Of a stretch of 64,000 nt of DNA, positions 1,213-56,463 are shown one piece after another. This DNA comes from a virus. The position numbers and the translations under genes were made by a program. Numbering within the stretch: the first letter of the stretch is position 1; every line of letters starts with the position of its first letter. The stretch lies in the IMG/VR virus record IMGVR_UViG_3300034019_001883, positions 1 to 64,000 of that record. One strand, 5' to 3'. The notes below the pieces were generated by a model that searched no databases, was not told the DNA's origin, and saw nothing but the letters and a program-made list of their open reading frames with translations.

Positions 1213-1648
1213 TAGCGCCCTGGTTCTATCGGGCGATCGCTTGTACATTGGCGATACTTTTACCCTTAGCTTTAGCCTATCAGTGGAAAGCATGGAGGCT
1301 AGCTTTCGACCTAACTTGAGCCAGGTCAACCTCCGCATGATCGGCAAGCGTAACCCAGGCGACCCGGACGAGAAGGCGTTATTTGATAGCGCTCGGGCGA
1401 CTAATCCCTACTGCACGATCGCCACTGATCCACCGGTAGGCACCACCTTGAGCGGACGCATCACCATCAACGGCGCGGCGACCGCCAGCCTAAAAACCTT
1501 CAAGCCCCAACCAGAGCTAGCCAGCCCAACGACCCAGCAAGCGGTGTTGCACTTCGCCTTTACCGCCCTCTACCAAGGCGAAAGCCGCCGCAAGGTGTTA
1601 GAGACTGGTGAAATTGTATTGCGCCGCGATCGCATCGAAGATCCATGA
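1193..1648 (+). CDS. Unknown phage protein
   Basis: 151 residues starting MLLIPTDSALVLSGD. Alternating hydrophobic and polar stretches suggest an all-beta protein of the kind found in baseplate or fibre accessory proteins; there is no recognisable motif. Its stop overlaps the start of the tagged gene at 1645 (ATGA), so the two are co-translated. Confidence 0.6.
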   Translation: MLLIPTDSALVLSGDRLYIGDTFTLSFSLSVESMEASFRPNLSQVNLRMIGKRNPGDPDEKALFDSARATNPYCTIATDPPVGTTLSGRITINGAATASLKTFKPQPELASPTTQQAVLHFAFTALYQGESRRKVLETGEIVLRRDRIEDP

Positions 1649-2370
1649 TTTACTACCGTTTCTATGGATGTTTGTACGAGCACCGGGGTGATCGCCTGTG
1701 CAAGGTAGCGGTCGGCACGATGCAGACCCGTAATGGTGTCCAGTACCAGCTAAACCAAAACCATCGCTGGCAACGGATCAAAGATTTTGCTGTCCATGAG
1801 GGTGATGAGGTAGGGCGCAATGTGGCGGCATGGAAAGCGGGTAAGGTAATTGGCGGAGCGGTCGCTAACCACGCGATCGCCATGGGTGCTGACCCGATGG
1901 CCGCCCAATTGATTTCAGAAACCGTGGTGCAGGCAGGTACGGCAACAGCGCTATGGGTCGCCCAGCAAGCCCGTAAAGGCACCCTTACCGCCGAAGGGTT
2001 AGCGGCTTACTTTGTCCAACAATCAGCGGCGGCAGCCCTTGGCAAGATGGCCCACCACGAGGCAGAACATTGGTTGCATACCTACAATGCCCAAGCGATC
2101 GCCCAGCAGGTAGGACCGATCCTAGCGGGCAAGGGGGCAGGGTTAGGGACGGTTGCCACGACCGCTAAGACCAAAGCCCATACCGCCTTGGTAGACTGGG
2201 TGGTTAGCCGCGGCAAGCATGACCTAGCGATGCTGGGCAAGGTGTTTGGCCATGACCTAGCCAAGGCGGCTGACCCGCAGGCGATCGCATTGTTGTGGCA
2301 ATTGCACCAGGCTGGTATTGCCATGGCCGCTATGCAGTTGAGGTATGCCCATGATGAACATCAGCCCTGA
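1645..2370 (+). CDS. Tagged protein: N-terminal hairpin tag plus alanine-rich helical body
   Basis: 241 residues. The start, YRFYGCLYEHRGDRL...VAVG, resembles the strand segment at the start of the gene at 18626. It is followed by TRNGVQYQLNQNHRWQRI (residues ~28-45), a member of the NGVxYxLNxNxRW tag family also seen at 14333, 18626 and 26191. The body is alanine/glycine-rich and helical with His clusters (HHEAEHWLH) and no motif I recognise. It has no Q-L-x-L-F. The tag relates it to the putative virion-cargo family; the role of the body is unknown. Confidence 0.65.
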   Translation: MIYYRFYGCLYEHRGDRLCKVAVGTMQTRNGVQYQLNQNHRWQRIKDFAVHEGDEVGRNVAAWKAGKVIGGAVANHAIAMGADPMAAQLISETVVQAGTATALWVAQQARKGTLTAEGLAAYFVQQSAAAALGKMAHHEAEHWLHTYNAQAIAQQVGPILAGKGAGLGTVATTAKTKAHTALVDWVVSRGKHDLAMLGKVFGHDLAKAADPQAIALLWQLHQAGIAMAAMQLRYAHDEHQP

Positions 2371-2500
2371 ACGCGCCGAACTATTGAAGCTAAAGGCCAT
2401 GAGCGACGAGGAGCGGCTTAGTTACTTGCTAGCCCGCCACGCGCTTATCCCCCTTGGCAGCCCATTGCCGCCCATCCATCAAGTGCTATGCGAACCCTAA
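2351..2500 (+). CDS. Small unknown protein (49 aa)
   Basis: This short gene overlaps the end of the preceding gene by 20 bases and the start of the next by 13. The product, beginning MMNISPERAELLKLKAM, has a helical N-terminal half with an SDEERLSYLLARHAL helix. Tight packing with both neighbours supports it as a real gene. Start may be either of two adjacent ATG codons (2351 or 2354). Confidence 0.5.
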   Translation: MMNISPERAELLKLKAMSDEERLSYLLARHALIPLGSPLPPIHQVLCEP

Positions 2501-8288: not shown

Positions 8289-8307
8289 CCTGATTAGATT
8301 CTATAGA

Positions 8308-8341: not shown

Positions 8342-8377
8342 TTGGCTGAAACGATCAGCCTGCAAGGGTTTTAGCGC

Positions 8378-9522: not shown

Positions 9523-9594
9523 CTTTGGCATTTCTCCGTAGTAAAAACGCTATAGACGTGTTAAAAATACACTTGTATTGTTTTTTTGCTTTCT

Positions 9595-10748: not shown

Positions 10749-13700
10749 ATGGCTATTTCTACCCTGCGCCCGCTGCGCCCCCGGCGGGCTATTTTATTGC
10801 GCAAAGACGCCCAGTTAGGTTTATTTGGCGGTGAGACTGAAGTAAAGCCAACAGCGGCGGCCAAGCGTCGGGAGCGAATGCTGCAGCCCAAGGCACCACC
10901 CAAGCCACCCAAGCCCAGCACCAGGGCAACAGCGCCCAAAGAGGGTGACACTCGCATTAACCGGGCAGGCAATGAGGAGGTATTGCGGGCAGGACGGTGG
11001 CGATTGGCTAGTAACCCTAAGGTGGTTGCCAAGGATAGGGGAAGCGCCGCGATCGTCCCGGTGGTGGAGGCGGATGAGCCTATGCTCGAGGCAGACGAGG
11101 ACGCGATCGGCCCGGTTGTGGAAGAACCCATGGTGGAGTCCGAACCCCAAAACTTGGCAAACCCTGGCAGTACATTTACACTAGAGCAAGACGACAATTT
11201 AATTGAGGAAATTACCGATGGACTATCCAGGGATGATGAAGCCGCCCTCCGATCTGGAGGAGGAGTACCTGTTCGAGACGCCGACGATGGAGGAACTGTC
11301 AGCGCTAGCGATCGCGGAGCTTATCGACAAGTCGAACCCAGGCTCATCACTGCACGAGCAGAGCTCACTAAACCCGCAGATACCGGAGTCATTCCTGAGG
11401 GCATCCGAGATCATCTAAGGGATCACCAGCAACAAGGAGCCGCCGCCGCGATCGCCGCCATGGATAAACAAGGCGGCTTTTTGTTGGCCGATGGAACAGG
11501 GGCAGGAAAGACAAGGCAATTGCTAGCGATCGCGGAACGCTACCGACAGCAAGGTAAGAAAGTATTGATTATTGCCCCCTCTGAAGTCATTAAGCCAAAT
11601 TGGAAGAAAGGAACCGTTGCAGGTTCATTTAAGGATGACTCCAGCGCTATGGGCATCCCCGTGTCTTTGGCGATGCAAGCTGACAAGATGGGCGCAGGCA
11701 AGATCTGCATCAGCGCCTATAGCAGGCTCAATGCCTTTGAGGATGCGATCGATGACGACACCATTTTGCTATTTGACGAGGCCCACTCATTCAAAAATGT
11801 GACAGCCCAGCGCAGCAAGATCGGCATGAAGATGATGCGCAAAGCTAAAGCCGTGTGCTACGCAACAGCGACACCGGCGGATAAGCCTGAGCATATCGCT
11901 TACCTATTCAAGGCTGGCATTTTTAATGGACTAAAACAAGATGAAATCTTCTCCTGGCTTGGCATGAAGCAACGGGAAATCCGCGTAGGCGGAGGGAGGA
12001 CTGTCAAGAAATGGGAGATCCCACGGGGAAAATCTGCTGAAGTATACCAGCGCATGGCGGGACTATTCGACAACTTGACTGACAAAGGGCTGATGATCAA
12101 GCGCGAAATCAGCATGGAGGATGTTGATGTAGGCTTTGAAACCCTCACGTTGCCGGACAAAGCTCGGGTGATGCTAGAGGCAATCGAGGACAACTTTGAG
12201 GGCGGAGAAGGGCTAGAGCGAGCACAAATGTTAATGCACCAGCGGCGACAGCTGGAGCCTTACAAAATCCAGGCCGCCGTTGATCTAGCTAAACGCGAAC
12301 TAGCCGAAGGGCGTCAAGTTGTCCTGTTTATATCCAGGGTTAATGAGTCTGCTGTCAAAAAACGAAAATCCAGCCCAGACGATCCCGAGGTGGTCTTGGT
12401 AGATTCAGAGGGCACCGCTAAGCTGATTAGGGAAGCCCTGGAAAAAGAAGGCATCCTTGATATTACTGAACTGCATGGCGAGAGTGAAACCAAAGCAGAG
12501 GCGGCAATGGCAAGATTCCAGTCCGGCGAAGCTCGGGTAATGATTGCCACGGTGGAAAGCGGCGGTACTGGCGTCAACCTTGACGATAGAACTGGTGAGG
12601 CTCCCCGCACTTTAGTTATGGTCACGCCGCCATTCAACGCTGTTCAAAACCTGCAAGCAGCGGGTCGGGTATGGCGGATGACGACCAAAACCGCGCCCCG
12701 AATCCGATACCTATTCACCGACGCTGACGTTGACTCCTGGAACCGTCGGATAATCGCTAACAAAATGGCCGCGGTAGGTGCCGCTGTTCAGGGCGAAGTA
12801 GGCATCCTTGATCTACCCGAAGACATCTCAGATGACGCGATTGAAGCATTCATCGAGGCTAGGGACAAAAAGCAAGACTTTGACCCGATGTCACCCGCGC
12901 CCAGGCCGCCTGAACCAGTAACGCCGGTAAACACCAACAAATTACCCCCAGGATTTAGGGTGAACAAATATGGCGGCTACACGCGGGGCGGCACCTACGT
13001 TGAGGCGGGGGCAGGCTATATTCGCAATGAAAACGGTAAATGGGTCACCTACGCCAAGTCTCAGGTTGACGAAGCTGGTAATGTTACCCCTGAGCCAACA
13101 CCAGAAAAACCTGAAACCATGCCTACGGCTGAAAGGTTAGATGTGGCTAAAGGTATTGTCAGCAAGATCAACGCGATGGGAGAAGGAGAGACGCCCTACT
13201 CTCCGGAAGAAATAAAGTCAATTGAGTATGCACTCCAACTCATAGAAAGCGCTGACAACGATCGCGGGGAGGAGCGCAACATGGCGGGCTGGAGTGGGTC
13301 AACAAGGAGTGACGGGGTAAGGTTGTCAAGAAAAGTAAACGCAGGGCAACCATTGTCAGCTAGCGAACTGACAAATGCCGTCAAAATACTACAGATCCAC
13401 CGCAGACAACTAAAAGACGCAGAGATTGACCTGCCTTCCTACAAAGAGCCAACTGTTGCAGGGCTAGACCTAACGCCTACGGTATGGCAAGGCGGCGATC
13501 GCATTAGGGTGTACCTAAACGGCCCTGGGCGCAGAAGCTACGGCTACTTTGAGGTGAATGCATCTGGCAGTATTAAATATGACAGGGGCAGAGATGGAAC
13601 TCCCATTGACTCTGACTTTGCCCTAGGCGAACAAGGGCGGCAAATCCTACAGGAAATTACGCCATCAGCCCTCACCAAGTCCCTGCCCCCTGCCCCCGTC

Positions 13701-13898
13701 TTTACCCTAATGGGCGTGCCTTATATCTTCGACCATCACCGCGCCGTCCTGCGCAAGGCTGGCACCAGTTGGGAGCAGTTTGTAGCCGACCTCAGTAAGG
13801 AGGCTGACGGCGATCCATGCTGGGAGGGCTACGAGGCTGTAGGCATGAAAAAGAAACGCGGCAAGATGGTTCCTAACTGTGTTCCTGTAGGCCGCTAA
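10749..13898 (+). CDS. Tagged Strawberry-notch-like SF2 helicase
   Basis: 1049 residues from the ATG at 10749; GTG 10704 or ATG 10719 are alternatives. The N-terminus has the short tag: AILLRKD, Q-L-G-L-F (residues 22-26) and NRAGNEEVLRAGRWRLA. The helicase begins near residue 220: LADGTGAGKTRQ (Walker A), LLFDEAHSFKN (DEAH), CYATATPAD (motif III), GGTGVNL and LQAAGRVWR (motif VI), the Strawberry-notch pattern. The C-terminus repeats the first tag segment (FTLMGVPYIF...AVLRKAG, nt ~13700-13765) after SALTKSLP and ends in CWEGYEAVGMKKKRG...VPNCVP. Probably virion-delivered or clamp-associated. Confidence 0.85.
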   Translation: MAISTLRPLRPRRAILLRKDAQLGLFGGETEVKPTAAAKRRERMLQPKAPPKPPKPSTRATAPKEGDTRINRAGNEEVLRAGRWRLASNPKVVAKDRGSAAIVPVVEADEPMLEADEDAIGPVVEEPMVESEPQNLANPGSTFTLEQDDNLIEEITDGLSRDDEAALRSGGGVPVRDADDGGTVSASDRGAYRQVEPRLITARAELTKPADTGVIPEGIRDHLRDHQQQGAAAAIAAMDKQGGFLLADGTGAGKTRQLLAIAERYRQQGKKVLIIAPSEVIKPNWKKGTVAGSFKDDSSAMGIPVSLAMQADKMGAGKICISAYSRLNAFEDAIDDDTILLFDEAHSFKNVTAQRSKIGMKMMRKAKAVCYATATPADKPEHIAYLFKAGIFNGLKQDEIFSWLGMKQREIRVGGGRTVKKWEIPRGKSAEVYQRMAGLFDNLTDKGLMIKREISMEDVDVGFETLTLPDKARVMLEAIEDNFEGGEGLERAQMLMHQRRQLEPYKIQAAVDLAKRELAEGRQVVLFISRVNESAVKKRKSSPDDPEVVLVDSEGTAKLIREALEKEGILDITELHGESETKAEAAMARFQSGEARVMIATVESGGTGVNLDDRTGEAPRTLVMVTPPFNAVQNLQAAGRVWRMTTKTAPRIRYLFTDADVDSWNRRIIANKMAAVGAAVQGEVGILDLPEDISDDAIEAFIEARDKKQDFDPMSPAPRPPEPVTPVNTNKLPPGFRVNKYGGYTRGGTYVEAGAGYIRNENGKWVTYAKSQVDEAGNVTPEPTPEKPETMPTAERLDVAKGIVSKINAMGEGETPYSPEEIKSIEYALQLIESADNDRGEERNMAGWSGSTRSDGVRLSRKVNAGQPLSASELTNAVKILQIHRRQLKDAEIDLPSYKEPTVAGLDLTPTVWQGGDRIRVYLNGPGRRSYGYFEVNASGSIKYDRGRDGTPIDSDFALGEQGRQILQEITPSALTKSLPPAPVFTLMGVPYIFDHHRAVLRKAGTSWEQFVADLSKEADGDPCWEGYEAVGMKKKRGKMVPNCVPVGR

Positions 13899-14332: not shown

Positions 14333-16342
14333 ATGAAAACCTTTACCCTTGCAGGCGATCGCTACGCCGCGATCGCGTCCCCCCGTGGCATCGTCTTTCG
14401 CAAAGCGGCGGACTTTGACACCCGACTACCGATGGATGCTGAGCAGCGGGGTAGCATTGGCGCTGACCTGAATGCCTTGCTGTGTTCGCTGATGGACCTG
14501 CGCCTATCGCTACAACTAGCCCACTGGAACGTGAAAGGCATCAACTTCCAGCAATTGCATGAACTTTTTGATAAGTTGCAAGAAAGCCTATTGCCCCACA
14601 TTGACCTGGTGGCTGAGAATGTGGCTACCCTGGGCATGGTGGTGATCGGCACTGCGGACGACATCGGCGATCGCACCATCTTGATGCCCTACAGCAATGG
14701 CAGCGACCAATACGCCATCCTAGACGAACTAGCGGACCGCTACGCCTACCTAATCCGCCACATGATGGACTTGGTTGAGGAGCTATTGGCTGATGGCATC
14801 CAGGGGATTGCTGACGTGCTAATAGGCATCCACATGGACATGGAACGCAACGGCCTTTATTTTCTAGAATCCCATATCCCTAGCGCCAACCTACAGAAGG
14901 CAGCCAGGCGATCCATGCTGGAGGAAGGCGCTACCAAGGAACGCAACGGCGTTACCTACCGGCTCAACAAAAACCGTCGCTGGGAACGGAGCGATCGGGG
15001 CAGCAAGCCAGCCAGGGGTAAGCGGCCAAAGCCCCCCGGCGGTGTAGTGCCCGTCATCCCGATGGATGGCGCTAAGACTAAGGGTAAGTCAAAGCCGATG
15101 CGCTTTGATAGCCGTCCCCCGGGCGGCGGTGCCCAGGCGGTGCAGCAGGGCAAATTAAACGCCAAGGCACAACGGGCGGCGGCCAAGGTGACGCCAAAGG
15201 TGGCCCCCGCAGGCAAGCCTGCCAAGGCGAAAAAGGCTGAAGTGAAGCCCAAGGGCAAGAAGGCAACCTCGGAACCCTTGTCAGATGATGCCTTTGTCGA
15301 TCTGGCCCTGAATGCGGCCAAGGCGACCCAGGGCGGGCGGCTAGGGGACTCCAAGGTGTTTATCTCCAAGGTATGGGAAACCTTGCAGCAGCAGCACCCA
15401 GACCTAAACCTCAGCCTAGACGACTTCAAAAAACGTTTGGTGAGGGCTAACCGGCAGCGAAAGCTCGATCTAAGCCGGGCGGATATGGCCTACGCGCTAG
15501 ACGCCAATGACGTATCAACGTCTCAAATTAAGGACGACAACAGCGAGTACCATTTCATCCGCCAAGCATTTGAGCCCGAGCAAAAGCCAGCCTCGACAGG
15601 CAAGGTAAAGCCCAAGGGCAAAAAGGCAACCGTCAAACCCAAGGCGGAGAAAACCCAGCCACAGGCAAAAGCGATCGCGTCCTATGGTGAGTTCAAAAAC
15701 GAAGTTGCCAGGATCTACGACAAGCTCAACACTGAAGAAAACCTAAGCGACATGGTGCCTATCTATCGCATTCGCCGCGAGCTAGGCGATCGCGTCTCCC
15801 GTGCGCAATTCAAAGAATGGATGATGGACATCCAGGCAAGCGACAAAATACAGCTAATGGGAGGACAAGTGCCCGGTGTCACTCAAGATCAACGCGAAGA
15901 CTCTATCACAATCCCTGGCGGTGGAATGCGGTTTTACGTCAAAAAGCTAAAGGACTTTGACGGCAACGACGAGACAGATTCATCCAAAGCTCGCCGGAAA
16001 CCTAAATCATCAACGCCGTCGCAGCCTAAGCCAAAAACAACGCCTATCAAGTCCTACGACGACTTTAAGGGCGAAATAGCCAGCGTCTACGACAGGCTGA
16101 ACAAGGACTACAACCTAGGCGACTTGGTTCCTATTCACCGCATTCGCCGCGAACTAGGCAACCGTGTTTCCCGCGAGCAGTTTGACAAATGGTTGTTTGA
16201 CATCCAGGCCGACGACCATGTGCAGCTGATGGGCGGCGCCTTACCCAACGCTACTCAGGCAGACAAAGACGATGCCCTGCAAATCAGAGGAGCCCTTCGG
16301 TTCTACGTCAGAAAACTGAGAGACTTTGGCGGCAAGTCTTAA
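14333..16342 (+). CDS. Tagged Dps-type ferritin fused to repeated C-terminal modules
   Basis: 669 residues. Residues 1-25 are the strand tag (FTLAGDRY...GIVFRKA). Residues ~40-190 are a Dps domain: LAHWNVKGINFQQLHELFD with His64, His76, Asp91 and Glu95, matching the ferroxidase spacing (12, 15, 4) of bacterial Dps. Next comes the hairpin tag NGVTYRLNKNRRWER, a basic linker with PKGKKAT repeats, one domain of the type FISKVWETL...LDDFKKRLVRANR, and two tandem ~90-residue repeats (LVPIxRIRRELGxRVSRxxF...QLMGG...RFYVxKL). Dps oxidises iron with peroxide and binds DNA; in a phage it may protect or compact delivered DNA. Q-L-x-L-F is absent. Confidence 0.85.
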   Translation: MKTFTLAGDRYAAIASPRGIVFRKAADFDTRLPMDAEQRGSIGADLNALLCSLMDLRLSLQLAHWNVKGINFQQLHELFDKLQESLLPHIDLVAENVATLGMVVIGTADDIGDRTILMPYSNGSDQYAILDELADRYAYLIRHMMDLVEELLADGIQGIADVLIGIHMDMERNGLYFLESHIPSANLQKAARRSMLEEGATKERNGVTYRLNKNRRWERSDRGSKPARGKRPKPPGGVVPVIPMDGAKTKGKSKPMRFDSRPPGGGAQAVQQGKLNAKAQRAAAKVTPKVAPAGKPAKAKKAEVKPKGKKATSEPLSDDAFVDLALNAAKATQGGRLGDSKVFISKVWETLQQQHPDLNLSLDDFKKRLVRANRQRKLDLSRADMAYALDANDVSTSQIKDDNSEYHFIRQAFEPEQKPASTGKVKPKGKKATVKPKAEKTQPQAKAIASYGEFKNEVARIYDKLNTEENLSDMVPIYRIRRELGDRVSRAQFKEWMMDIQASDKIQLMGGQVPGVTQDQREDSITIPGGGMRFYVKKLKDFDGNDETDSSKARRKPKSSTPSQPKPKTTPIKSYDDFKGEIASVYDRLNKDYNLGDLVPIHRIRRELGNRVSREQFDKWLFDIQADDHVQLMGGALPNATQADKDDALQIRGALRFYVRKLRDFGGKS

Positions 16343-18388: not shown

Positions 18389-18629
18389 AGTAGACTTTTC
18401 CCAGGTGGCGGCAGCAGCCTTTAGCGATATGCTGATCCTACGCGATCGCGTCCTGCACGAACGCGAAACCTTCCGCAATGAGTCTGCCAACTGGCAAGAG
18501 CTAACCAAGCTCGATGAACCCGCCCTCCAGGACCGGCTGATGCGCTGTGAAATCCTAAACCGCACCGAGGCGTTGATCCGCACCACAGACCTACGCTGTC
18601 ACCCCCTGGAGGTACTAAAAGAGTCATGA
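18381..18629 (+). CDS. Small helical protein, divergent start overlap
   Basis: 82 residues from the ATG at 18381, with GGGGGA upstream. It is helical and charged (MLILRDRVLHERETFRNESANW...). Its start overlaps that of the minus-strand gene, and its stop overlaps the start of the tagged kinase-like gene (ATGA), so it probably leads that translational unit. Unknown function. Confidence 0.6.
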   Translation: MAIVDFSQVAAAAFSDMLILRDRVLHERETFRNESANWQELTKLDEPALQDRLMRCEILNRTEALIRTTDLRCHPLEVLKES

Positions 18630-19903
18630 CATTTCTAAGATTCATGGGACGACTTTATACCTTGCAACGGCGCGATCGCTCCCTAGTCCTGTCCAAGGTT
18701 GCTAACGGCACAGTGGCGACCCGTGGCAGCACTGTTTTCCGGCTCAACAAAGATCATCAGTGGGAAGCGCTAAGCAAGGCAGGACGGCGGCGGCAACCCT
18801 CCCCAGGGCAGCTAGGCTTATTTGGTGGGCATAATGAGGGCGACACCAAAGTGGAAAATGGCGTCACCTATCGGCTGAATAGTCATAGTCGGTGGGAACG
18901 AATGGCTGGAAACGAGAAACAGGCGCAGACGAAAAGTATCGGCCAAGGCGTTAAAGTGGGAGACCAGTTTAACGCCCCGGAAATGTTTGACTTCTACCCG
19001 CAGACGTATGAAGTCAAAAGGGTGGAGGACGGGCTGGTTCATGTCGGCTACGCCAACAGCGGGATGTCCCACACCTCAATGCCTGAAGCATCATGGGAGC
19101 ATTTCAAAAATGATCTATCTGGCAAAGTTGAAGGACCTCCATCTAGCAACCCATTAATAAATGCTGTCATATCAGGAGAAGCAAAGCCGCTTGGCAAAGG
19201 CAACAGCGGACTTGTATTCCGCCATGAAGGGAAAATAATCAAAGTCGGCACCACCGTACCATTTCAGCCGCTTAATCCAGGGCATAGATCCCCTGAAGAG
19301 GCGATCGCAAACCTAAAGAAAGAGCATGATGTTTGTCAGCTACTAAGATCCAAGGGCGTCCCAGGAATCCCTAAGACAGAATTTATCGTCCACGGGGATA
19401 AAGGGTTTTTAATTAGAGACGAAATGGACATGCCTAATTCATTGACGCCGGAGCAATTAGACAAGGTAGATAAAATCGTTCGGCGCATTCATGGCGCTGG
19501 CTATGCCATCCAAGATGAAATCCAGGTAGGGCTTATCAACGGCGAACCTTATATGCTTGATGTGGGCGACGCCCAACCCTTAAAAGGAAAAACTAAGCAA
19601 GAAAAGCGTCAAAGAATACAAGACGATGAATGGCGACTCTCTGCACTCTTTAACAGAAACAAGATAGAGCATCTTATCTCTCAAGCAAAAGAAATAGTAA
19701 GCAATAGACGGCTGTACCGGGAGTTAGCAGGTGAATCTCTCCCCCCTCAAGTTAGGCCGAACGCTATTGAGGTCGCTGACCTGTTGGACGAAAAACTTAA
19801 GCAGCCAGCTCCAGATATTTCGGCAACCGCAAGGAAGGCTTTTTCTAAAGCAAGACGAGCGCAATCGAAAAAAGCGCTATCCCCTGGAGGTGCTGAACTG
19901 TGA
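18626..19903 (+). CDS. Tagged protein with kinase-like fold
   Basis: 425 residues. The tag region holds two hairpin copies (TRGSTVFRLNKDHQW and VENGVTYRLNSHSRWER) around SPGQLGLFGG (Q-L-G-L-F at residues 62-66). The C-terminal domain reads as a protein-kinase-like fold: glycine loop LGKGNSGLVFRHEGKIIKVG with the lysine, a helix KKEHDVCQLL, hinge IRDEM, catalytic-loop equivalent RIHGAGYAIQDEIQ and a DFG equivalent in YMLDVGDAQ. Such folds occur in phage polyvalent proteins. The catalytic loop keeps an Asp but lacks the usual Asn. DNA for the tag (18774-18905) closely matches 26882-27013. Confidence 0.7.
   Translation: MTFLRFMGRLYTLQRRDRSLVLSKVANGTVATRGSTVFRLNKDHQWEALSKAGRRRQPSPGQLGLFGGHNEGDTKVENGVTYRLNSHSRWERMAGNEKQAQTKSIGQGVKVGDQFNAPEMFDFYPQTYEVKRVEDGLVHVGYANSGMSHTSMPEASWEHFKNDLSGKVEGPPSSNPLINAVISGEAKPLGKGNSGLVFRHEGKIIKVGTTVPFQPLNPGHRSPEEAIANLKKEHDVCQLLRSKGVPGIPKTEFIVHGDKGFLIRDEMDMPNSLTPEQLDKVDKIVRRIHGAGYAIQDEIQVGLINGEPYMLDVGDAQPLKGKTKQEKRQRIQDDEWRLSALFNRNKIEHLISQAKEIVSNRRLYRELAGESLPPQVRPNAIEVADLLDEKLKQPAPDISATARKAFSKARRAQSKKALSPGGAEL
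18774..18905 (+). repeat. Tag-encoding paralogous segment, copy 1 (with 26882-27013)
   Basis: 132 bases align without gaps to 26882-27013, encoding RRRQPSPGQLGLFGGHNEGD and the following hairpin tag. The flanking sequences are unrelated, so the module moved by duplication or recombination. Confidence 0.85.
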
Positions 19904-23097: not shown

Positions 23098-23636
23098 GGA
23101 GACTGTTATTGCTCGACCACACCGCCCTGGTGCAGCACCGGAATGGCCCCGGTGTCTACATCAACAACCGGGACGATATGACATTGGTTCCAGGCATTCT
23201 AGGCGCCCTAGAGCCCTACGTTGACAGGAACTACAACGTCGCCATCTGTAGCAACCAGGGCGGCGTCGAGAAAGGCCACCTAGCGTTCGGTGCTTGCCAA
23301 AACCTATTCGGTGAAATGTTCAAGCTGTCCAACTATTGGGTTCAGGCCATTTGGTTTTGCCCCCTAGCCCGGGGCAGCACCGGCAGTTATGCCATTCAAA
23401 TGACGATGCCCTACGAACCCAAGACCTATACCAAATGCCAAAAGTATGCCACCACCGGCTACCGGATGCCCCAGGCGGGCATGATTTTGGCCGCCATGGA
23501 CTGGTTTGGGGTAACGCCTGAGCAGACCACCATGGTGGGCTTACAGCCGGAGGCTTACTATGCCGCCGCTGATGCAGGCGTCAAAAAGTTTGTCCACAGT
23601 TCGTACTTTGTTGAAAAAGCGGGAGTATTGCAATGA
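23094..23636 (+). CDS. HAD-superfamily protein with altered active site
   Basis: 180 residues. It resembles the histidinol-phosphatase / PNKP-phosphatase branch: motif II ICSNQGGVEKG is intact. Motif I reads LLLDHTALVQ (Asp8 present, the +2 Asp replaced by Thr), and motif IV reads MVGLQPEAYYAAADAG, where the usual VGD acid is lost. It may therefore be a weakened or binding-only relative. Lying between an SSB-like protein and the clamp, a role at DNA ends is possible. It overlaps dnaN by four bases. Confidence 0.65.
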   Translation: MRRLLLLDHTALVQHRNGPGVYINNRDDMTLVPGILGALEPYVDRNYNVAICSNQGGVEKGHLAFGACQNLFGEMFKLSNYWVQAIWFCPLARGSTGSYAIQMTMPYEPKTYTKCQKYATTGYRMPQAGMILAAMDWFGVTPEQTTMVGLQPEAYYAAADAGVKKFVHSSYFVEKAGVLQ

Positions 23637-24751
23637 AATTTACAGTAGATGCGGGTGATCTGGCAGAGGCGATCGCGCTGTGCGATCGCGCTATCCCTAA
23701 GCGCCCTAGCCGCCCTATCCTGGGGCATATGCTAATGCAGCTAGACAATGGCAGTCTTATCCTAAAAGGGTTTGACGAGGCGCTAGGGATTAGCTTTTCC
23801 TTGCCAGTGGATATGGAGCAATCCGGTGATTGTTGCATATCTCCTACTTATCTAAAACCTATCCTGGAACGCCTATCCGGGCAGGTGGCCTTAGACCTGC
23901 AATACCCTGTCCTGGTGCTAACCACCCTGGGCGCCGAGTACCGCATTAACACCCTCCTGGCTGAGGACTACCCCAACTTGCCCGAGGTGGACGGCACCCC
24001 GGTAGAGTTGTCCATATCCTCAGAAGAACTACGGGCCGCGATCGCGGCTACGGTGTTCTGCGCCAGTACTGACGAAAGCAAGCAGGTACTTACCGGCGTT
24101 CACTTCTCCGTTACCCCCGGCGAAGGGGGGGAGGCAGGGGTGATGGAGTTAGCGGCCACCGATGGCCATCGGATGATCGCCTACCCGCTACCCGGTAGCG
24201 TTGTCATCCCCGATGACTATCGCCCCGTCACCCTGCCCGGGAAGAGCCTGCGGGAACTGCTAACCGTCCTGAAGGGCGAGGGTGCCGTCAAGCTGACGTT
24301 TGATGACGTGTCTGTGCGTGCCCTATGCGGCAACACCGAGCTCTATAGCCGGGTTATCGAGGGGCAATACCCTAACTACCGGCAGCTATTCCCCAAGGTG
24401 TTCTCAAAGGTGGCGACCTGCGATCGCAAGCCATTCTTAGCCGCCCTCGATCGCACCTTGGTGGTGGCCGGTGAAAACAAGGACATCGTTAAGCTGGAGT
24501 TTGACACCACTGGGCTGGTGATGAGTGCAGAGGCAAAAGAAGCGGCCAAAGCTCAGGAACATGTCGAGGGCGTAACCTGTAGCGAACCCATCACCCTAGC
24601 GGGGAACGGTAAGTACATCAAGGAGGCGCTAACCAATGCGATCGTGGGTGAAACCTTCACTATGGAAATGAATAAGCCAGAAAGCCCAGTGGTTTTTACA
24701 GATGGGTCCCCGGCGACCTATTTAATGATGCCCATTCAGATTAGGGGTTAA
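23633..24751 (+). CDS. dnaN: DNA polymerase III beta subunit (sliding clamp)
   Basis: 372 residues, the normal length for a bacterial clamp. All three domains are visible: SRPILGHMLMQL in domain 1, TDGHRMIAYPLP and VKLTFDDVSVR in domain 2, GQYPNYRQLFP near the domain 2/3 junction, and the C-terminal YLMMPIQIRG that lines the partner-binding pocket. A phage clamp would hold the polymerase and other Q-L-x-L-F proteins on phage DNA. Six proteins of this window carry such a motif. The gene overlaps its upstream neighbour and is followed closely by the DpdA-type gene. Confidence 0.95.
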   Translation: MKFTVDAGDLAEAIALCDRAIPKRPSRPILGHMLMQLDNGSLILKGFDEALGISFSLPVDMEQSGDCCISPTYLKPILERLSGQVALDLQYPVLVLTTLGAEYRINTLLAEDYPNLPEVDGTPVELSISSEELRAAIAATVFCASTDESKQVLTGVHFSVTPGEGGEAGVMELAATDGHRMIAYPLPGSVVIPDDYRPVTLPGKSLRELLTVLKGEGAVKLTFDDVSVRALCGNTELYSRVIEGQYPNYRQLFPKVFSKVATCDRKPFLAALDRTLVVAGENKDIVKLEFDTTGLVMSAEAKEAAKAQEHVEGVTCSEPITLAGNGKYIKEALTNAIVGETFTMEMNKPESPVVFTDGSPATYLMMPIQIRG

Positions 24752-26190: not shown

Positions 26191-28803
26191 ATGGTTCTTC
26201 CTCTGGAGGCTATCCTGTCCAAGTCAGCCGATATGGTTGTGGGCGGGGTAGCCTCCAATTTTTTTAGAGATCTTGACGGCGATGCCATTTGCCCGGACGC
26301 GATTCAACGCGCTATCCCTGGCTTCATGGCAACCCGTGGCCCGGACGGGCTAAAGGGTGGCCCCATTCGCCTGCACCATGGTTTTTGGGAGCGATTTCTA
26401 AAGCAGTCCATCTCTGCCCTTAATATTCCCTACGACCAGCAAGTGGGGCTACTAGCCGCGATCGCGCTCCCCCTGGGCCGGGTGACTGAGATGAGTGTCG
26501 ATAGCGATGGCACTACGCGTTGGCGGGGTGTCCTATCTGGCGCTAACCCCATCGCCCGGGTGGTGTGGAATATGCTCAAAGAGGGCATGGTTCACCTTGG
26601 CGTTAGCGTTGGTGGCAAGATCAACGGTGTACGCCCCGGCAGAGATGCGATCGGGCGGACCTGTAACCTTATTACTGACGTACGGCTCGATGAGCTCAGC
26701 ATCACTGATAACCCGGCTAATCGACTAATTGAGTCCGAGACCCCCGACAATGGCGCCTATATCACCGCGCTTGCTAAATCTGTGGGTAATACCATGCTCG
26801 CTCAGAAGCAACAGCATTACATCTACCTGAATGGCATCGCCTATACCGCTCACCCTAGCGAGGAACATGGCATTGTCCTACGCAAGGCAGGACGGCGGCG
26901 GCAGCCCTCCCCGGGCCAGCTAGGCTTGTTTGGTGGCCACAATGAAGGTGATACCAAAGTAGAAGACGGTGTTACCTATCGGCTCAATGCCAATAGCCGA
27001 TGGGAGCGGATGGATAAACCCAAGGCCAGCGGTAAGCCGTCTGGCGGGAAGAAGAAGGCGGAAAAGCCTGCGATCGTCCCGGTGGTGGAGGACGAGCCCG
27101 CCGCCCAGGACCCCGAACCCACCGTTAGCGACATGCTGGAGCAGCAGCAAGCGGAGATAGCTGAGTCGAAACCAGTTATCTCGGGCAGGCAATTTGTCGA
27201 AGAGTTTATTTCCGCCTGGAATGACACCCATGGTTCAGAGTGGAACCGCGATGCTGCGGGATACACAAAAGCCAAAATATGGGACAAAAAAGACGGGGAG
27301 ATCCGGGTTTACTTTGGCTCCGTTAAGCAGCCCCTGGTTTTCAGGAAGCAAGATAATGGCGAATACGTTGCCGCTGTAACCCCTGGCAAATATGGACTTG
27401 ATGAGCAAATTGCCCCTATCCTCGACGATCTAAATTCACGGTTTTCTACCAAGCCTGAAAACACCAAGACCGACCAAGGCTCTGCCGGAACCCAACAACG
27501 AGTATTGATGCAAGAAGACGAAGACGGTGTTGTTGCACCTGCAGGACAACACGAACGTGGCGTCCATATCGTGCGGGAATGGTACGAGTCAGAACCATCT
27601 CCCAAGCCCACCGTTGGCGACATGCTGGAGCAGCAGCAAGCCGCGATCGCGGATGAGCCCATGCCTGAGGGTGAGGCGATGGAGGGGGCGGAGGATGACT
27701 GGGAAAGTAAGCTGCAAGAGCTTCAGTCTATTGGCAATCAAGCCAAATTAGATGGACCCGAGGGTGTGAAGGATGACGCGACAGAGGCGCCTGGGGTTTC
27801 TTACAATCCTGACTTAGTGCAGCAACGAATCAACCAAGGTTATTTTGAAGGCCGGGCTTTCTACTCAAAAGCCGTACAAGCCATGAAGGCAGCATTGTCA
27901 GCAGGTAGATCTGTCAAACTGCATTTTGATGACCAAAGTAGCTATGGCGCCAATCTGGTAGCTGAAATCGACGGAGTTCGGCACCCTATCACTCGCTCGA
28001 AACTAAAGCCAAAAGATATTGCGTTTCTCCTGACGGTCAACAGTCATTCGGCAATGGACGTTTCGGAAGGCGCCTTGGAACAATTAGGACTAGGCAGCAA
28101 AACTGCCCCAACCGGACGCAAACGATCTTCCGCCTTTACCAAATCTCTCACCCCCTCATTCCCCATGACTATCGACAACTTCCTCCGCAAAGCCCTGGGT
28201 AATCCTGGGCGTGAGTTTGGTTCTGGCTCATGGCGGGATACGGGCATCCCGGCGATGGGCCGTAAAGTTGACGCCAAAAGCCCGCAGCCCAAGGGCGGCA
28301 AAAAGGTACAAATGGATGAGTCCGCTAGTGCCCATGCCGGTAAGGGTATCGGTGGCAAACAACCCAAAGCCCATCGCCCCTACTCCTCCGGCGGTATGCC
28401 CCCCACTGATGTATTCGGTATCACCATCACCCAACTAACCCGCAACCTAGCCAAGGCTTGTTATATGGACAAGGACGCCTGGGGTAGCCCGGAGACGGTT
28501 TCCTTCTTGACCGACAGCGCCAGGGCGATCGCGGGCATGACCGACACCCCGACCGACCCAATGGTGAACTTTGTCCGGTTCTTGCAATACTGCACCCGTT
28601 TCGCCCAAGAATTGCCGTTTATGAACGACTACCAGGCGGCGGGGACGGTGAAGGCGATGAATGCCGACCTAACCAAAGCGCTGGACGAATTCGTAGAGAA
28701 GATGCCTGAGGAGCTAAAGGGAAAACCTTTGCGCCCTGCCGGTTCACCCGGCGTTGTGGGCATCGACGTTCAGTTTCCCCAACAGTACGTTATTTACTCC
28801 TAG
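26191..28803 (+). CDS. XkdF-type prohead protease fused to tag and further modules
   Basis: 870 residues. Residues 1-190 are the XkdF-like serine protease: GVASNFFRDLDGDAICPDAI, KGGPIRLHHG, DGTTRWRG, GVSVGGKINGVRPGRD and LDELSITDNPANR. After TALAKSVGN comes the full tag (YIYLNGIAY...GIVLRKAG, Q-L-G-L-F at 243-247, NGVTYRLN-like DGVTYRLNANSRWER). Then follow two PTVxDMLEQQQA repeats flanking an unassigned domain, a second unassigned domain, AFTKSLTP, and a C-terminal helical domain starting TIDNFLRKALGNPG. The protease normally cleaves scaffold and capsid; here it seems to be a polyprotein that carries cargo-like modules. Confidence 0.8.
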   Translation: MVLPLEAILSKSADMVVGGVASNFFRDLDGDAICPDAIQRAIPGFMATRGPDGLKGGPIRLHHGFWERFLKQSISALNIPYDQQVGLLAAIALPLGRVTEMSVDSDGTTRWRGVLSGANPIARVVWNMLKEGMVHLGVSVGGKINGVRPGRDAIGRTCNLITDVRLDELSITDNPANRLIESETPDNGAYITALAKSVGNTMLAQKQQHYIYLNGIAYTAHPSEEHGIVLRKAGRRRQPSPGQLGLFGGHNEGDTKVEDGVTYRLNANSRWERMDKPKASGKPSGGKKKAEKPAIVPVVEDEPAAQDPEPTVSDMLEQQQAEIAESKPVISGRQFVEEFISAWNDTHGSEWNRDAAGYTKAKIWDKKDGEIRVYFGSVKQPLVFRKQDNGEYVAAVTPGKYGLDEQIAPILDDLNSRFSTKPENTKTDQGSAGTQQRVLMQEDEDGVVAPAGQHERGVHIVREWYESEPSPKPTVGDMLEQQQAAIADEPMPEGEAMEGAEDDWESKLQELQSIGNQAKLDGPEGVKDDATEAPGVSYNPDLVQQRINQGYFEGRAFYSKAVQAMKAALSAGRSVKLHFDDQSSYGANLVAEIDGVRHPITRSKLKPKDIAFLLTVNSHSAMDVSEGALEQLGLGSKTAPTGRKRSSAFTKSLTPSFPMTIDNFLRKALGNPGREFGSGSWRDTGIPAMGRKVDAKSPQPKGGKKVQMDESASAHAGKGIGGKQPKAHRPYSSGGMPPTDVFGITITQLTRNLAKACYMDKDAWGSPETVSFLTDSARAIAGMTDTPTDPMVNFVRFLQYCTRFAQELPFMNDYQAAGTVKAMNADLTKALDEFVEKMPEELKGKPLRPAGSPGVVGIDVQFPQQYVIYS
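26882..27013 (+). repeat. Tag-encoding paralogous segment, copy 2 (with 18774-18905)
   Basis: Gapless, near-identical copy of 18774-18905, differing mostly at third codon positions, inside an otherwise unrelated gene. Confidence 0.85.
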
Positions 28804-29673: not shown

Positions 29674-30663
29674 ATGACGAACGCAGCCCTGACCCGTCGG
29701 GCGCTACTAAAATCGCTAGGCATTAGCGATGGTGGTGGTGCCGAGGTTACCCTCCAAACCACGATCGCTTCTGAAGTGATCCCCTTGATCCGGCAACAAT
29801 GCTTCATGCGGCAGATCGCTGATCGCAGCAAGAGCCTGATCAATATGACCAAGCCCAAGATCCGCATCCCCAAGCTGGTACGCGCCCAAGGTGCCTACAG
29901 CGTCAAAGCGGGCCAACCGGCGCCTGAGTTCAAGGCACGGCTCGACAGCATCGACTTGGTGCCCGAAAAGCTGATGACCTGGCTACCCGTGGACCAGGAA
30001 GTATTCGAGGACAGCACCATTCGAGACATCGAAGGGATGCTGAAAGAGGAAATGGCTCGGGAATTTGCCCAAGCGGAAGAGCTTGCCTTCCTGCTAGGGG
30101 ATACCACCGTGGACCATGGCCCCGGCGACCCTAAGAATGTTTTTAATGGGTTATTCGCCCAGGCCGCCGCGACGCCCTACACCTACGACGCCTCCCTTGA
30201 CACCAGCGCTAACGCTGTTGAGGCCGGTACTGTCACCAGCAACCTGGTACGCGCCATGCGCTACCTGGGCATCTACGGACGCAATAAGCGCGACGTAGTG
30301 GTGATGGTGGGCCTAGCCTGGGAGGAAGCCCTCCTGCGTAACCGTAGCTTCCAAACCATGAGCAGCTACGCCTATGGCTCTGGTGCTGGTATCTTCACCG
30401 GTGAGATCGGACGCCTAGCCGGTGCCCCGGTCATTGCTACCACCTTCCTGGATGCGCAACCCGGTGAAACCTACGGAAAAGCCCTGGTAATGAACCAATC
30501 AGCCTTTGCCATTGGCGACTGGCAGCGATTTAACATCAGGGTATATCAGGAAATCTTAAGTGCCACGGACCAAACGGCAATACGTGCGAGGGAGCGGCTC
30601 GCATTTTCTGTAAGGTATCCTGAAGCTATCGTTGAGATTCTCAACGTTCCCGCTCAGCCGTAG
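29674..30663 (+). CDS. Major capsid protein (HK97 fold)
   Basis: 329 residues. The E-loop and spine region (IRIPKLVRAQGAYSVKAGQPAPEF), LVPEKLMTWLPVDQEVFEDS, the spine helix GMLKEEMAREFAQAEELAFLLGD, a P-domain with ALLRNRSFQTM, and the C-terminal IRARERLAFSVRYPEAIVEI are all typical of HK97-type capsid proteins. The short N-terminus holds RALLKSLGIS, which matches the L-x-K-S motif of its neighbours and may be trimmed. Its last 10 bases overlap the end of an HNH gene on the other strand. Confidence 0.92.
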   Translation: MTNAALTRRALLKSLGISDGGGAEVTLQTTIASEVIPLIRQQCFMRQIADRSKSLINMTKPKIRIPKLVRAQGAYSVKAGQPAPEFKARLDSIDLVPEKLMTWLPVDQEVFEDSTIRDIEGMLKEEMAREFAQAEELAFLLGDTTVDHGPGDPKNVFNGLFAQAAATPYTYDASLDTSANAVEAGTVTSNLVRAMRYLGIYGRNKRDVVVMVGLAWEEALLRNRSFQTMSSYAYGSGAGIFTGEIGRLAGAPVIATTFLDAQPGETYGKALVMNQSAFAIGDWQRFNIRVYQEILSATDQTAIRARERLAFSVRYPEAIVEILNVPAQP

Positions 30664-45987: not shown

Positions 45988-46015
45988 AACCCCCCAGCCA
46001 CGGGGCTAGGGGGTT
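45988..46015 (+). terminator. Probable terminator after RHH gene
   Basis: AACCCCC ... GGGGGTT stem closing on CAGCCACGGGGCTAG; a T-rich tail is weak on the plus strand and better on the minus strand. Confidence 0.5.
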
Positions 46016-46064
46016 GAGTGCGGGTGTCGGTACGAACGAAACCCTTATTAAAGGAATAAATGCT

Positions 46065-46892
46065 ATGTCCAACATTGTAGCATGCACTTTACCAAACGGG
46101 ATGCAGCAATTAGCCCTGTTCAATACCATTGACCTCAAGCCAATGGCGGACGATCGCATCCGGTTCTACCGTGGCGACGCGATCGCGGTCTTGAAGCAAC
46201 GGCTAGCGGCGGGCGATCGCTGGGACTACTGCCTAACCTCCCCTCCCTACTACGGCCAGATAGACTACGGCCACGAGGGGCAACACGGGCTAGAGGATAG
46301 CCTAGACGCCTACCTGGATACTCAGCAGCAGGTTTTTAGGCTGGTGTACCAGGGGCTAGCGGAGGGCGGGGTGTGCTGGATTGTGATAGGCGATACCAGC
46401 AACAACTACAGCCCGGTACGCGCCAAGGGGCAACGGCGACAGGCGGGAGACTGGCTCTACCGCCGCAGCCTGGAGGATGACTACCGCGAGAAAGAACCCT
46501 TACTGGTGCCTATCCGCCTGGCGGAGCGGCTACGGGCTGATGGCTGGGTAATGCGGAAGATCTTGATTTGGGATAAGGGGCAAAGCAGCCAGGTGGGCAA
46601 GGGTGACGCGCCACCGGAAACCCATGAATATGTCCTGATGATGGGCAAAAGCGGCAAGAATGGGCGACCGATGTTGAATACCAAACCACTGCGATCGTCG
46701 GTGTTGGTGCATCGTCCCTGTGGCCATTCTAGCCACCCCTGCCCATTCCCTGACTCGTTAGTCCACGAACTATTGTCTAGCGCCACAGTGGCCGGGGCGA
46801 CGGTGCTAGACCCTTACTTTGGCACCGGCACCACCGGACGGGTAGCGTCCCTGCTTGGCATGAAGTCTATCGGCATTGACCTAGGAGCATAA
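46065..46892 (+). CDS. DNA methyltransferase (beta class, N4-C or N6-A) with Q-L-A-L-F
   Basis: 275 residues from the ATG at 46065 (AAAGGAA upstream). Motif order is beta-class: catalytic SPPYYGQ near residue 63 first, AdoMet motif FGTGTT (LDPYFGTGTTGRVA) at the C-terminus. It is a type II N4-cytosine or N6-adenine enzyme; the site is unknown. The N-terminus contains NGMQQLALFNT (Q-L-A-L-F at 15-19), matching the clamp-binding motif, outside the catalytic core. This makes a second DNA methylase besides that at 8688. Confidence 0.85.
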   Translation: MSNIVACTLPNGMQQLALFNTIDLKPMADDRIRFYRGDAIAVLKQRLAAGDRWDYCLTSPPYYGQIDYGHEGQHGLEDSLDAYLDTQQQVFRLVYQGLAEGGVCWIVIGDTSNNYSPVRAKGQRRQAGDWLYRRSLEDDYREKEPLLVPIRLAERLRADGWVMRKILIWDKGQSSQVGKGDAPPETHEYVLMMGKSGKNGRPMLNTKPLRSSVLVHRPCGHSSHPCPFPDSLVHELLSSATVAGATVLDPYFGTGTTGRVASLLGMKSIGIDLGA

Positions 46893-47638: not shown

Positions 47639-47840
47639 ATGAAAATTTATACCCTTGCCGGGGTGCCCTACATCCCAGTGGTGACCGCTGGGGGCATTGT
47701 CCTAAGGAAAGCGGGACGACGGCACCAAGTGTCGCCAGGGCAGTTAGAGTTATTTGACACCCAACACCAGCAGGGCGAAACCCGCACCAACCAAGCGGGC
47801 CACCAGGAGGTGCTGCAAGAGGGGCGGTGGCACCTCGCTA
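47639..47840 (+). repeat. Tag-encoding paralogous segment (with 55339-55536)
   Basis: The first ~200 bases match 55339-55536 closely, with one short indel; the rest of the two genes is unrelated apart from a short shared module. A recent duplication or gene conversion is likely. Confidence 0.8.
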
Positions 47841-51559: not shown

Positions 51560-51632
51560 AAAAGCCCAGCGTTTAGCCGGGCCACTGTCCTCTTTTCCAA
51601 TCATGCTGCCCCCACTATAGCCGAGGTATTCC

Positions 51633-53977: not shown

Positions 53978-53979
53978 CT

Positions 53980-55335: not shown

Positions 55336-55338
55336 CCC

Positions 55339-55536
55339 ATGAAAATCTATACCCTTGCCGGGGTGCCCTATGTCCCGGTGGTGACCACTAGCGGCATTGT
55401 CTTGAGGAAGGCGGGCAAGCGATCGCCCGCCCCAGGACAACTAGGATTATTTGACGCTCAACACCAGCAGGGTGAGACCCGCACTAACCAAGCGGGCCAT
55501 CAGGAGGTATTGCAAGGCGGACGGTGGCACCTAGCC
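55339..55536 (+). repeat. Tag-encoding paralogous segment (with 47639-47840)
   Basis: See 47639; the two copies keep nearly the same codons with mainly third-position changes. Confidence 0.8.
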
Positions 55537-56463
55537 GACAAGCCTGGACCGGCTCAGCAACAGCCAGCACAGCCACAGCAACAACAACAAGCGCAACAGC
55601 CAGCACAACCACAGCAGTCAGCGCCCACCATGGAAAGCCTCCATACCCTGCACCAACAGGTTACCCAAACCCATGGGATAGCGCCTAGTCAAAACGATCC
55701 ATTAACAGCGATCGCGTCAGAAGCATTGCTTAACACAGCTTCCCCTGAGTCAGCCCAATTTGTCCAGTTTCTAAAACAGCTAGACAATCCAGAAACATTT
55801 TTGGAGTTAATTAACTCAGGGGAAACGTCTGACAAGCAACTAAGGCTAAAAGAGGCCAAAGCGCAAAAAATCGTCAGTTTGTTTGATCAATTCGGTGTTA
55901 ACGAATCCAGTGAAGTATGGGACTTGATCGACAAGGTGCCGGGAATGCTTGAAGCCAACGTCCCCCCTGAGCAGCCGCACTTCAAGCCAATTTTTGACTT
56001 AATCAGCCAAGCTGCCGCCGGGCTGGAAGAATTGCAAAATTACGACCTCAACCCTAAATCCCTGGCGCTGGAGTACGCCCAGGAGTACAGCAAAAGCGAG
56101 CTTAAAAGCTTTCGCAGGGAGATGGAACAAGATATGGCAAGCGAAACCGACCCGAAAGAACGGCGCGAATATGAGCTAAACATCAAGCTTGCTGACAATG
56201 TTTTAGAAAATTACCCGGCAATTGATAAGGAGCTTAGGAAAATCCGGGATATAGGCGATCGCATGCCTGACGAATTTTTCGACCATGACACCGCTGATGG
56301 TGCCAAGCGAAACTTGGCAATGATTCAAACTGCCATGACTCCATCGGCTCGTAACATCGGCAAGATACTCCTTTCCTGGGCAGATGACGATGTTGACGCA
56401 GAAAAGGCTGAAGCCGCTGAGAAAGCCTATGACCATTATTGGCAGCAAGCCTCCCAAAGCTAA
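55339..56463 (+). CDS. Tagged protein with helical body
   Basis: 374 residues. Tag as in 47639: YTLAGVPYVPVV...GIVLRKAG, Q-L-G-L-F at 34-38, NQAGHQEVLQGGRWHLA. A Gln/Pro/Ala linker and the short module PTMESLHTLHQQVTQT follow. The body (residues ~110-374) is helical and acidic, without a recognisable motif. It lies between two baseplate genes, so tagged genes are not confined to the head region. Confidence 0.6.
   Translation: MKIYTLAGVPYVPVVTTSGIVLRKAGKRSPAPGQLGLFDAQHQQGETRTNQAGHQEVLQGGRWHLADKPGPAQQQPAQPQQQQQAQQPAQPQQSAPTMESLHTLHQQVTQTHGIAPSQNDPLTAIASEALLNTASPESAQFVQFLKQLDNPETFLELINSGETSDKQLRLKEAKAQKIVSLFDQFGVNESSEVWDLIDKVPGMLEANVPPEQPHFKPIFDLISQAAAGLEELQNYDLNPKSLALEYAQEYSKSELKSFRREMEQDMASETDPKERREYELNIKLADNVLENYPAIDKELRKIRDIGDRMPDEFFDHDTADGAKRNLAMIQTAMTPSARNIGKILLSWADDDVDAEKAEAAEKAYDHYWQQASQS

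Follow-up and report, generated by a model that had tools for sequence, protein, structure and literature searches.

The stretch of DNA analysed here (the window) comprises the first 64,000 bases of the 76,049-base IMG/VR virus record IMGVR_UViG_3300034019_001883. Seven otherwise unrelated open reading frames (ORFs) in it, starting at positions 1645, 10704, 14333, 18626, 26191, 47639, and 55339 and named below after these starts, shared three short segments, A, B, and C, here called tags. Tail sheath and baseplate proteins, recognized by PHROG matches, were also encoded in the window; as judged from these genes, the virus is a contractile-tailed phage. In addition, the window encoded an HK97-type major head protein, a DnaN clamp, a sigma factor, a DpdA homologue, and an N6/N4 DNA methyltransferase. 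The phage family included three long relatives, G001, G002, and G009 (77–93 kb), and shorter pieces, and the capsid protein was 87–100% identical across the 8 loci found in the family. Relatives of this protein in named cyanobacteria were detected in Leptolyngbya sp. FACHB-36 (73%) and in a cyanobacterial metagenome-assembled genome (MAG; 82%); therefore, the host is probably a cyanobacterium similar to these carriers. Among GenBank phages, the capsid protein had 16 distant matches, and a tblastn search with the protease 26191 gave none.

All three segments were found where an earlier reading made from the letters alone (the sequence-only reading) had placed them, with corrections. The helicase ORF was indeed tagged, but it opened with GTG at 10704, and the start given previously, 10749, was an internal ATG. 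The listed copies of segment A were real, but the list was incomplete, as A also opened ORFs 1645 (MIYYRFYGCLYEHRGDRLCKVA) and 18626 (MTFLRFMGRLYTLQRRDRSLVLSKVA). Segment A covered about 22–27 residues and was usually N-terminal, opening ORFs 1645–2370 (1645..1710, with a same-slot ORF in Leptolyngbya), 14333–16342 (14333..14410), 18626–19903 (18626..18703), 47639–48442 (47639..47716), and 55339–56463 (55339..55416); it was internal in the protease (26812..26892) and C-terminal in the helicase (13692..13763), where LTK/S preceded it. All coordinates refer to the plus strand unless stated otherwise, and a slash marks a putative cut. The seven copies all ended in [LF]xK, followed by A in five of them and by V in two: LCK/VA in 1645, LSK/VA in 18626, FRK/AA in 14333, and LRK/AG in the helicase and the protease.

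Segment B, QLxLF, was present in five of the seven ORFs. It was read as QLGLF in the helicase (10812..10826, 2 residues past LLRK/D), in 18626 (18809..18823, 10 residues past LSK/AG), in the protease (26917..26931), and in 55339 (55438..55452, 9 residues past LRK/AG), and as QLELF in 47639 (47741..47755, 10 residues past LRK/AG). Segment C occurred in two forms, C1 (NGVxYxLNxNxRWxR) and C2 (NQAGxxEVLxxGRWxLA), which by eye look like variants of one unit. C1 was found in 1645 (1732..1776, NGVQYQLNQNHRWQR), 14333 (14945..14989), the protease (26965..27009, DGVTYRLNANSRWER), and twice in 18626, as a degenerate copy (18722..18763) and a second one (18857..18901), whereas C2 was found in the helicase (10944..11009), 47639 (47774..47839), and 55339 (55471..55536). 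The order A-B-C was kept wherever all three segments co-occurred.

Six-frame self-BLAST linked 47639 with 55339 (E 6e-36), 18626 with 26191 (8e-22), 26191 with 55339 (2e-8), 14333 with 26191 (4e-8), 1645 with 18626 (2e-6), and 10704 with 55339 (3e-5). Since apparently unrelated pairs reached 8e-6 to 2e-5 at best, the last and weakest link leans on the others. The profile search proposed by the sequence-only reading was run for segment A: the seven copies scored 37–47 bits, whereas the reversed control did not exceed 7.5 bits, a comparison that is circular for these copies because the profile contains them. Chance or low-complexity resemblance could be considered, given that the segments are short and the weakest link is no better than the best apparently unrelated pairs; however, the E-values of the closest copies refute it for those pairs, C-type cassettes recurred in other contigs and genomes, and we regard its probability as negligible. 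Random low-scoring matches as the source of the segments were ruled out by the self-BLAST E-values together with the A profile scores.

Comparison with the long relatives bore out the proposal that the set was built by module shuffling, as the tags were kept while some bodies were replaced. The capsid, scaffold-like, and clamp genes were 94–99% identical among the long contigs, and a clamp fragment in contig G011 was 85% identical. The match between 18626 and G001_67367 was limited to residues 1–92 (96.7%), the body downstream of the second C1 copy being different. Helicase 10704 matched G002_9877 over residues 1–159 (83%) and 990–1062 (90%), with the middle replaced, and G001_75144, at a contig end, only over residues 997–1061 (97%); the front tag of the helicase slot in G009 was 56% identical. 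In G001_33676, A and B resembled those of 55339, but C1 stood in place of C2 and the body was different. Slots 1645, 2488, and 47639 were not swapped and were 98–100% identical in G002. The variable payload of the helicase slot was an SF2 helicase in the window (11400..12833); in G002 it was a protein whose weak DUF3560 match fell short of the Pfam cut-off, and in G009 it was an N6-methylase/SNF2 protein, a homologue of P1 DarB (~32% identity). Helicase and methylase conflict domains among virion genes were thus present for this slot.

The body assignments of the sequence-only reading fared unevenly. The SF2 helicase was confirmed by a Pfam match and the Dps/ferritin body of 14333 by PF00210 (E 2.9e-12), and the head protease was supported by the alignment described below. 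The ART-like body, for which 47639 was the only body tested, had no Pfam or PDB match and no usable fold; the kinase-like body was based on motifs read by eye, with no Pfam or PDB match and an unusable single-sequence model, and neither assignment was upheld. For the body of 18626, the single-sequence model had a mean predicted local distance difference test (pLDDT) score of 41, and no PDB relative was found below E 0.75.

Codon comparison of the two closest pairs gave 17 synonymous against 6 replacing changes between 18626 and 26191, and 19 against 11 between 47639 and 55339 (7 against 7 in the A stretch and 12 against 4 in B-C). The excess of synonymous changes suggests that selection keeps the peptide sequences of the tags. 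This bears on the idea that the segments have no molecular role and serve only as neutral ends held in common, which favour gene swaps, an idea that would agree with the position of the body swaps at tag borders. We consider that explanation highly improbable, because, apart from the even count in one A stretch, synonymous changes predominated, the segments have a fixed order, they include a motif of known function, and the motif that ends segment A tracks the head proteins.

Occurrences of this end motif, in the form [LF]xK[AS], were compared with those in shuffled sequences of the same composition. The 7 tagged genes had 17 occurrences against 4.4 expected, and 8 head-region genes had 9 against 1.75, with none of 300 shuffles as high in either set; counts were flat in 20 tail-region genes (3 against 3.2) and in 51 others (9 against 9.8). 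The same counts for [LF]xR[AS] and [LF]xE[AS] showed no enrichment. Of 10 proteins labelled by gene position and compared with PHROGs, 4 matched sheath, baseplate, or virion structure families and 1 matched endolysins, while 5 had no match. Within the head region, the scaffold-like ORF (28819..29643; named from its position only, with no PHROG match) contained four [LF]xK[AS] sites. The major capsid protein (29674..30663) began with MTNAALTRRALLK/SLGISDGG, its ALLK/SLGISD being similar to TFNK/SLGSD of HK97 gp5, which is cleaved at this point, between residues 103 and 104.

The protease showed a related arrangement. Its domain (26191..26769) aligned with HK97 gp4 around LHHGFW, LGVSVGG, and DELSI..PAN, including the H and S that we take to be the catalytic residues, although the family score was weak (phrog_9427, E 5e-4). 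The protein has 870 residues in the window against ~420 in Leptolyngbya and the MAG. BLAST against the Leptolyngbya protease placed an insert with A, B, C, and a variable region (26824..28128) between LAK/S (residue 194) and LRK/A (residue 665), which are ~20 residues apart in the short forms. Putative cut sites at matching positions were kept in the protease and scaffold-like proteins of four lineages. In a diverged relative on a 4.7-kb IMG/VR contig (L071), segment A was missing between the putative cut sites of the protease, which did carry C1 and QLPLI.

Based on the end motif shared with head proteins (though two A copies have K/V), the conserved putative sites, and the position of the protease insert between such sites, we infer that segment A may be a capsid-targeting propeptide, as in the T4 internal proteins and P1 DarB. 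Alternatively, the tagged proteins might not be packaged and might act in the infected cell, gathered on the phage clamp or the prohead, with A as an assembly-site anchor. The clamp gene 23633 adjoins the head genes, and the tagged ORFs, which are located among the late genes, could have a role there. However, this alternative leaves unaccounted the end motif common to the capsid, scaffold-like protein, and protease and the single cassette between two conserved cut sites, and the DarB homologue behind one tag also argues against it, as P1 DarB is found in the virion (PMC9024508); we judge it rather unlikely. Support for packaging of the tagged set is circumstantial, coming from the putative protease sites in common with the capsid, scaffold-like protein, and protease and from the DarB homologue behind the helicase-slot tag in G009. 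The overall view of the sequence-only reading, an effector set perhaps packaged and injected with the DNA, is therefore partly supported, its module shuffling being the well-supported part.

A similar distribution of the motif was seen in the unrelated Bordetella phage PHB04. In its 16 capsid-to-portal genes, [LF]xK[AS] was found 20 times against 7.5 expected (0 of 400 shuffles as high), compared with 5 against 4.4 in 26 tail-region genes and 10 against 11.6 in 79 others; these counts omit three proteins between the gene blocks. The motif lay within the first 30 residues in 8 of the 124 PHB04 proteins. Five of the eight began with a few hydrophobic residues and the motif, namely a DarB-like methylase, an SF2 helicase, a (p)ppGpp-hydrolase-like protein, and two hypothetical proteins; the remaining three were a tail-region protein, the portal protein, and one resembling an export signal by eye. 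Thus, five unrelated proteins with a simpler version of segment A occur in an isolated phage (MF663786; L108 21098–37431, L109 1664–2419).

The collinear prophage in Leptolyngbya encoded three ORFs with A-like starts. The ORF in the 1645 slot opened with LLKFDLLGNTYYLRGDRLVK/S; another, of 2,163 residues and by eye resembling a methylase-helicase, had MQYVIGTTSYRVVESAGQLLLRK/D followed by QFNLF, QLPLF, and C1; and the ORF in the 55339 slot had MKFKLGTVLYVWDESKLALVK/A followed by QLSLF and HPRDNSGKF. The cut motif occurred 8 times against 1.96 expected in 8 head genes (1 of 500 shuffles as high) and 4 times against 4.07 in 15 tail homologues. As far as its sequence patterns go, the prophage repeats the tag layout.

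Segment B fits the bacterial clamp-binding pattern Q-phi-x-[LM]-[FL] in its preferred form, QLxLF, described as the highest-affinity beta-clamp-binding consensus (PMC11139829). Six copies of QLxLF were present in the 86 predicted proteins of the window against 0.31 expected from composition. The sixth, QLALF (46107–46121), opens the N6/N4 DNA methyltransferase (46014..46892) and its relatives, which are without A or C. The phage encodes its own clamp (23633..24751), with three DnaN Pfam domains and a best PDB match at E 6e-30. A search of 15 records found the clamp above the cut-off in G000, G001, G002, and G009, the four longest family contigs, and weakly in G006. Although overall identity to the E. 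coli clamp was 26%, 10 of 18 pocket residues were equal, including H175, N320, Y323, M362, and P363; 5 were conservative changes, and 3 were not (R246Q, V344E/T, R365Q).

In the window family, each B following an A-type or LLRK site started 2–10 residues later (one second copy 35), and in Leptolyngbya the distances were 3 and 9 residues (second copy 27); B would therefore lie near the new N-terminus after cleavage. The structure of 55339 was predicted from 7 sequences, with a mean pLDDT of 72 for the best model and ~52 for the other four. In the best model, A was a three-stranded beta meander of low confidence (pLDDT ~50–57) and C2 a small three-stranded beta meander (~59–70), while the B region (residues 26–41; pLDDT < 50) was a predicted disordered linker, as read from this one protein and the best of five models. 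A Foldseek search with the model gave no match below E 0.19, so that the structure prediction foreseen by the sequence-only reading supplied meanders for A and C2 but no structural relative.

Outside the family, Q-phi-x-[LM]-F was found 10 times against 0.42 expected in 12 C- or HPR-tagged proteins of six other contigs, against 1 (0.48 expected) for the reversed motif and 2 (1.4 expected) in 206 untagged proteins. The six contigs were selected for carrying C1, with G008, G010, G011, G012, and G013 omitted and G014 covered over its first 40,000 bases only. Contig G003 carried SPGQLGLFDTPQHQVGDTKTENGTTYRLNQNHRW, close to the B-C cassette of the window. The sliding clamp is a concrete candidate address for the "addressable" effectors, which goes beyond the sequence-only reading.

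Taken together, these observations lead us to a tentative model, held at somewhat less than even confidence, in which the tags are a two-step label on exchangeable virion-delivered cargo: a removable head-entry label and then a clamp hook. Segment A would bring the attached protein into the prohead, where the HK97-type prohead protease would cut it at [LF]xK/[AS] or a similar end. After the cut, QLxLF would be situated in a disordered tail, 2–10 residues behind the new N-terminus, and after injection the cargo would dock on the host or phage-encoded clamp and be held at replicating DNA. Segment C would be a folded spacer or adaptor between label and cargo. The protease itself carries one tagged cassette, inserted between two conserved putative cut sites. 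In a broader form, which is plausible yet doubtful, the family would possess a platform of exchangeable injected effectors, in which a removable capsid-entry propeptide and a built-in clamp hook exposed by the protease cut deliver any antirestriction or host-takeover protein straight to replicating DNA, the B-C cassette having spread between unrelated phages. By analogy with known systems, each half (propeptide and clamp motif) has precedent, and this variant is a combination of known parts; no proposal combining a removable virion label with a clamp hook was found in the literature searched, as far as the sources were accessible.

The clamp hook could be dispensed with if A, B, and C were one composite packaging and processing signal, the likeness of QLxLF to clamp motifs being coincidental or B contacting a head protein. 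The mostly joint occurrence of B with A in the window phage would be expected on this basis, as would the DarB homologue in the helicase slot of G009 and the fact that clamp motifs are not general in DarB-like proteins. However, QLALF opens methyltransferase 46014 and its relatives without A or C, B occurs without detected A in G003–G005, the phage clamp has a largely conserved pocket, and a cut at the putative site would retain B. We consider delivery without a clamp step possible but unlikely.

Several results weigh against the two-step label. The motif [LF]xK[AS] was phrased after the sequences had been inspected, gene position is the basis of several head and tail labels, and the "tail" gene 40516 matched a PHROG filed under head and packaging. 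Two of the seven A copies end in K/V, and the helicase has LRK/D ahead of its B; B itself is missing from two of the seven tagged ORFs (1645 and 14333). In Leptolyngbya, the cut motif was not enriched in the 3 tagged genes (3 against 3.29), the strict A pattern found one of the three starts, and the window A profile missed these N-termini; their kinship is accordingly argued from position, order, and pattern. In the Leptolyngbya genome sequence searched, a clamp relative was not detected, which means little because the expected clamp of the host was not found there either. All ten motifs in the six other contigs came from three of these, G003, G004, and G005, the first two of which look related, and several B-like copies in other phages end in W; the clamp motif of mycobacterial ImuB is QLPLWG (PMC10421592). 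The idea that clamp motifs generally mark DarB-like proteins was rejected, with 1 occurrence against 0.88 expected in 10 DarB-like proteins and 7 neighbours (n = 17, from P1 and 9 of 71 matched records). The sole hit was the PHB04 methylase, starting MIILLTKAQLALFDTP, where the motif lies directly past the putative site. Six P1 Dar-system proteins, compared in the same way, were without Q-phi-x-[LM]-F.

Among the systems compared, phage T4 provides a likeness for A, as several internal proteins (IPI–III, Alt) have a short N-terminal propeptide ending at the site cut by the prohead protease gp21, and Alt and gp21 are also processed C-terminally (PMC9026906). A short N-terminal segment common to unrelated proteins was likewise found for A, apart from its internal copy in the protease and C-terminal copy in the helicase. 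In contrast to T4, the putative site here is [LF]xK/[AS], copies of A also occur internally and at a C-terminus, and the putative cut is followed by a clamp motif. P1 DarB, with an N-terminal packaging signal of at most 30 residues (PMC9024508), is matched by the DarB-type methylase-helicase payload of G009; P1 differs in the six Dar proteins compared, which have no clamp motif, and in eight head and Dar proteins, where [LF]xK[AS] was counted 6 times against 6.2 expected, and the motif was rejected as a universal mark of head proteins. Polyvalent proteins (Iyer et al., 2017) are similar in that they include helicases and methylases of several domains for which packaging and injection are predicted; the main text of PMC5512222, as far as accessible, mentions no clamp, DnaN, or packaging signal, and in the present phage a constant label precedes changing bodies. 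Bacterial clamp-binding motifs share the pentapeptide, a predicted disordered context, and a clamp with a largely conserved pocket (PMC11139829), whereas here the motif would be reused in an exchangeable phage tag just past a putative protease site. The HK97 protease and capsid are matched by the gp4-like motifs and the K/SLG-like capsid N-terminus; in contrast to HK97, a cassette of several hundred residues lies between the protease domain and the C-terminal region.

If the two-step label is correct, a readable sequence label would mark phage-packed and injected proteins, even those whose bodies match nothing known, and would predict where in the host they go, linking virion delivery to the replication machinery. 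It would also offer a testable protease code, [LF]xK/[AS], for which enrichment was seen among head-block genes in two unrelated groups of phages, and might provide a protein-delivery tag to be used in filamentous cyanobacteria.

The only role considered for segment C is that of a spacer or adaptor, small and folded, placed between the label and its cargo. Searching viral contigs with the C1 DNA pattern yielded 13 stretches; two (L007 and L019) were discarded as chance, leaving 11 in 10 contigs. The C2 pattern matched 10 stretches, and the 6 contigs that hold them all belong to relatives of the window phage. C1 was also found in phages of other kinds, in proteins mostly of 1,000–3,700 residues, and in Calidithermus. 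In genome contigs, the stricter C1 pattern found none, and a looser one found 6 stretches; those in Leptolyngbya, the cyanobacterial MAG, and Calidithermus were kept, and L073, L077, and L078 were dropped as chance, judged from context. A search for the B-C cassette in GenBank phages gave only 2 hits at E 4–10, none credible at that sensitivity. In G003–G005 and in the Leptolyngbya ORF LEP_84347, an HPRxxxGxF unit replaced C after B. In the giant proteins of G003, G004, and G005, which are phages of other kinds, the unit stands behind QLxL[FW] (also L093:14347–15876), and it is an apparent alternative to segment C. At the C-terminus of the helicase, an extra tag, D (CWEGYEAVGMKKKRGKMVPNCVPVGR; 13818..13895), was present; of the 50,697 GenBank phage records, 386 contained it, and 353 of these have Synechococcus, cyanophage, or Prochlorococcus in their names. 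The four carriers inspected included a "cytidyltransferase" and a hypothetical protein near a terminase gene.

Several neighbouring genes were also observed. The sigma-70 family factor (9586–10707) adjoins the tagged helicase and has a 29% relative on the Leptolyngbya contig. A minus-strand ORF (17687–18586; 299 amino acids) lies within the plus-strand late block, and its 32% relative in the Leptolyngbya prophage has roughly the same neighbours. The DpdA homologue (24933–25673; Pfam E 5.3e-37) suggests 7-deazaguanine modification of the phage DNA. An HNH protein (39392–40480) has a 50-residue stretch (44%) in common with a second phage ORF (L006:3130–3651) and terminates in TQLPLL, which fits the looser clamp motif. 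A long tape-measure-like ORF (41785–45708) has an endolysin-family match over residues 1075–1228.

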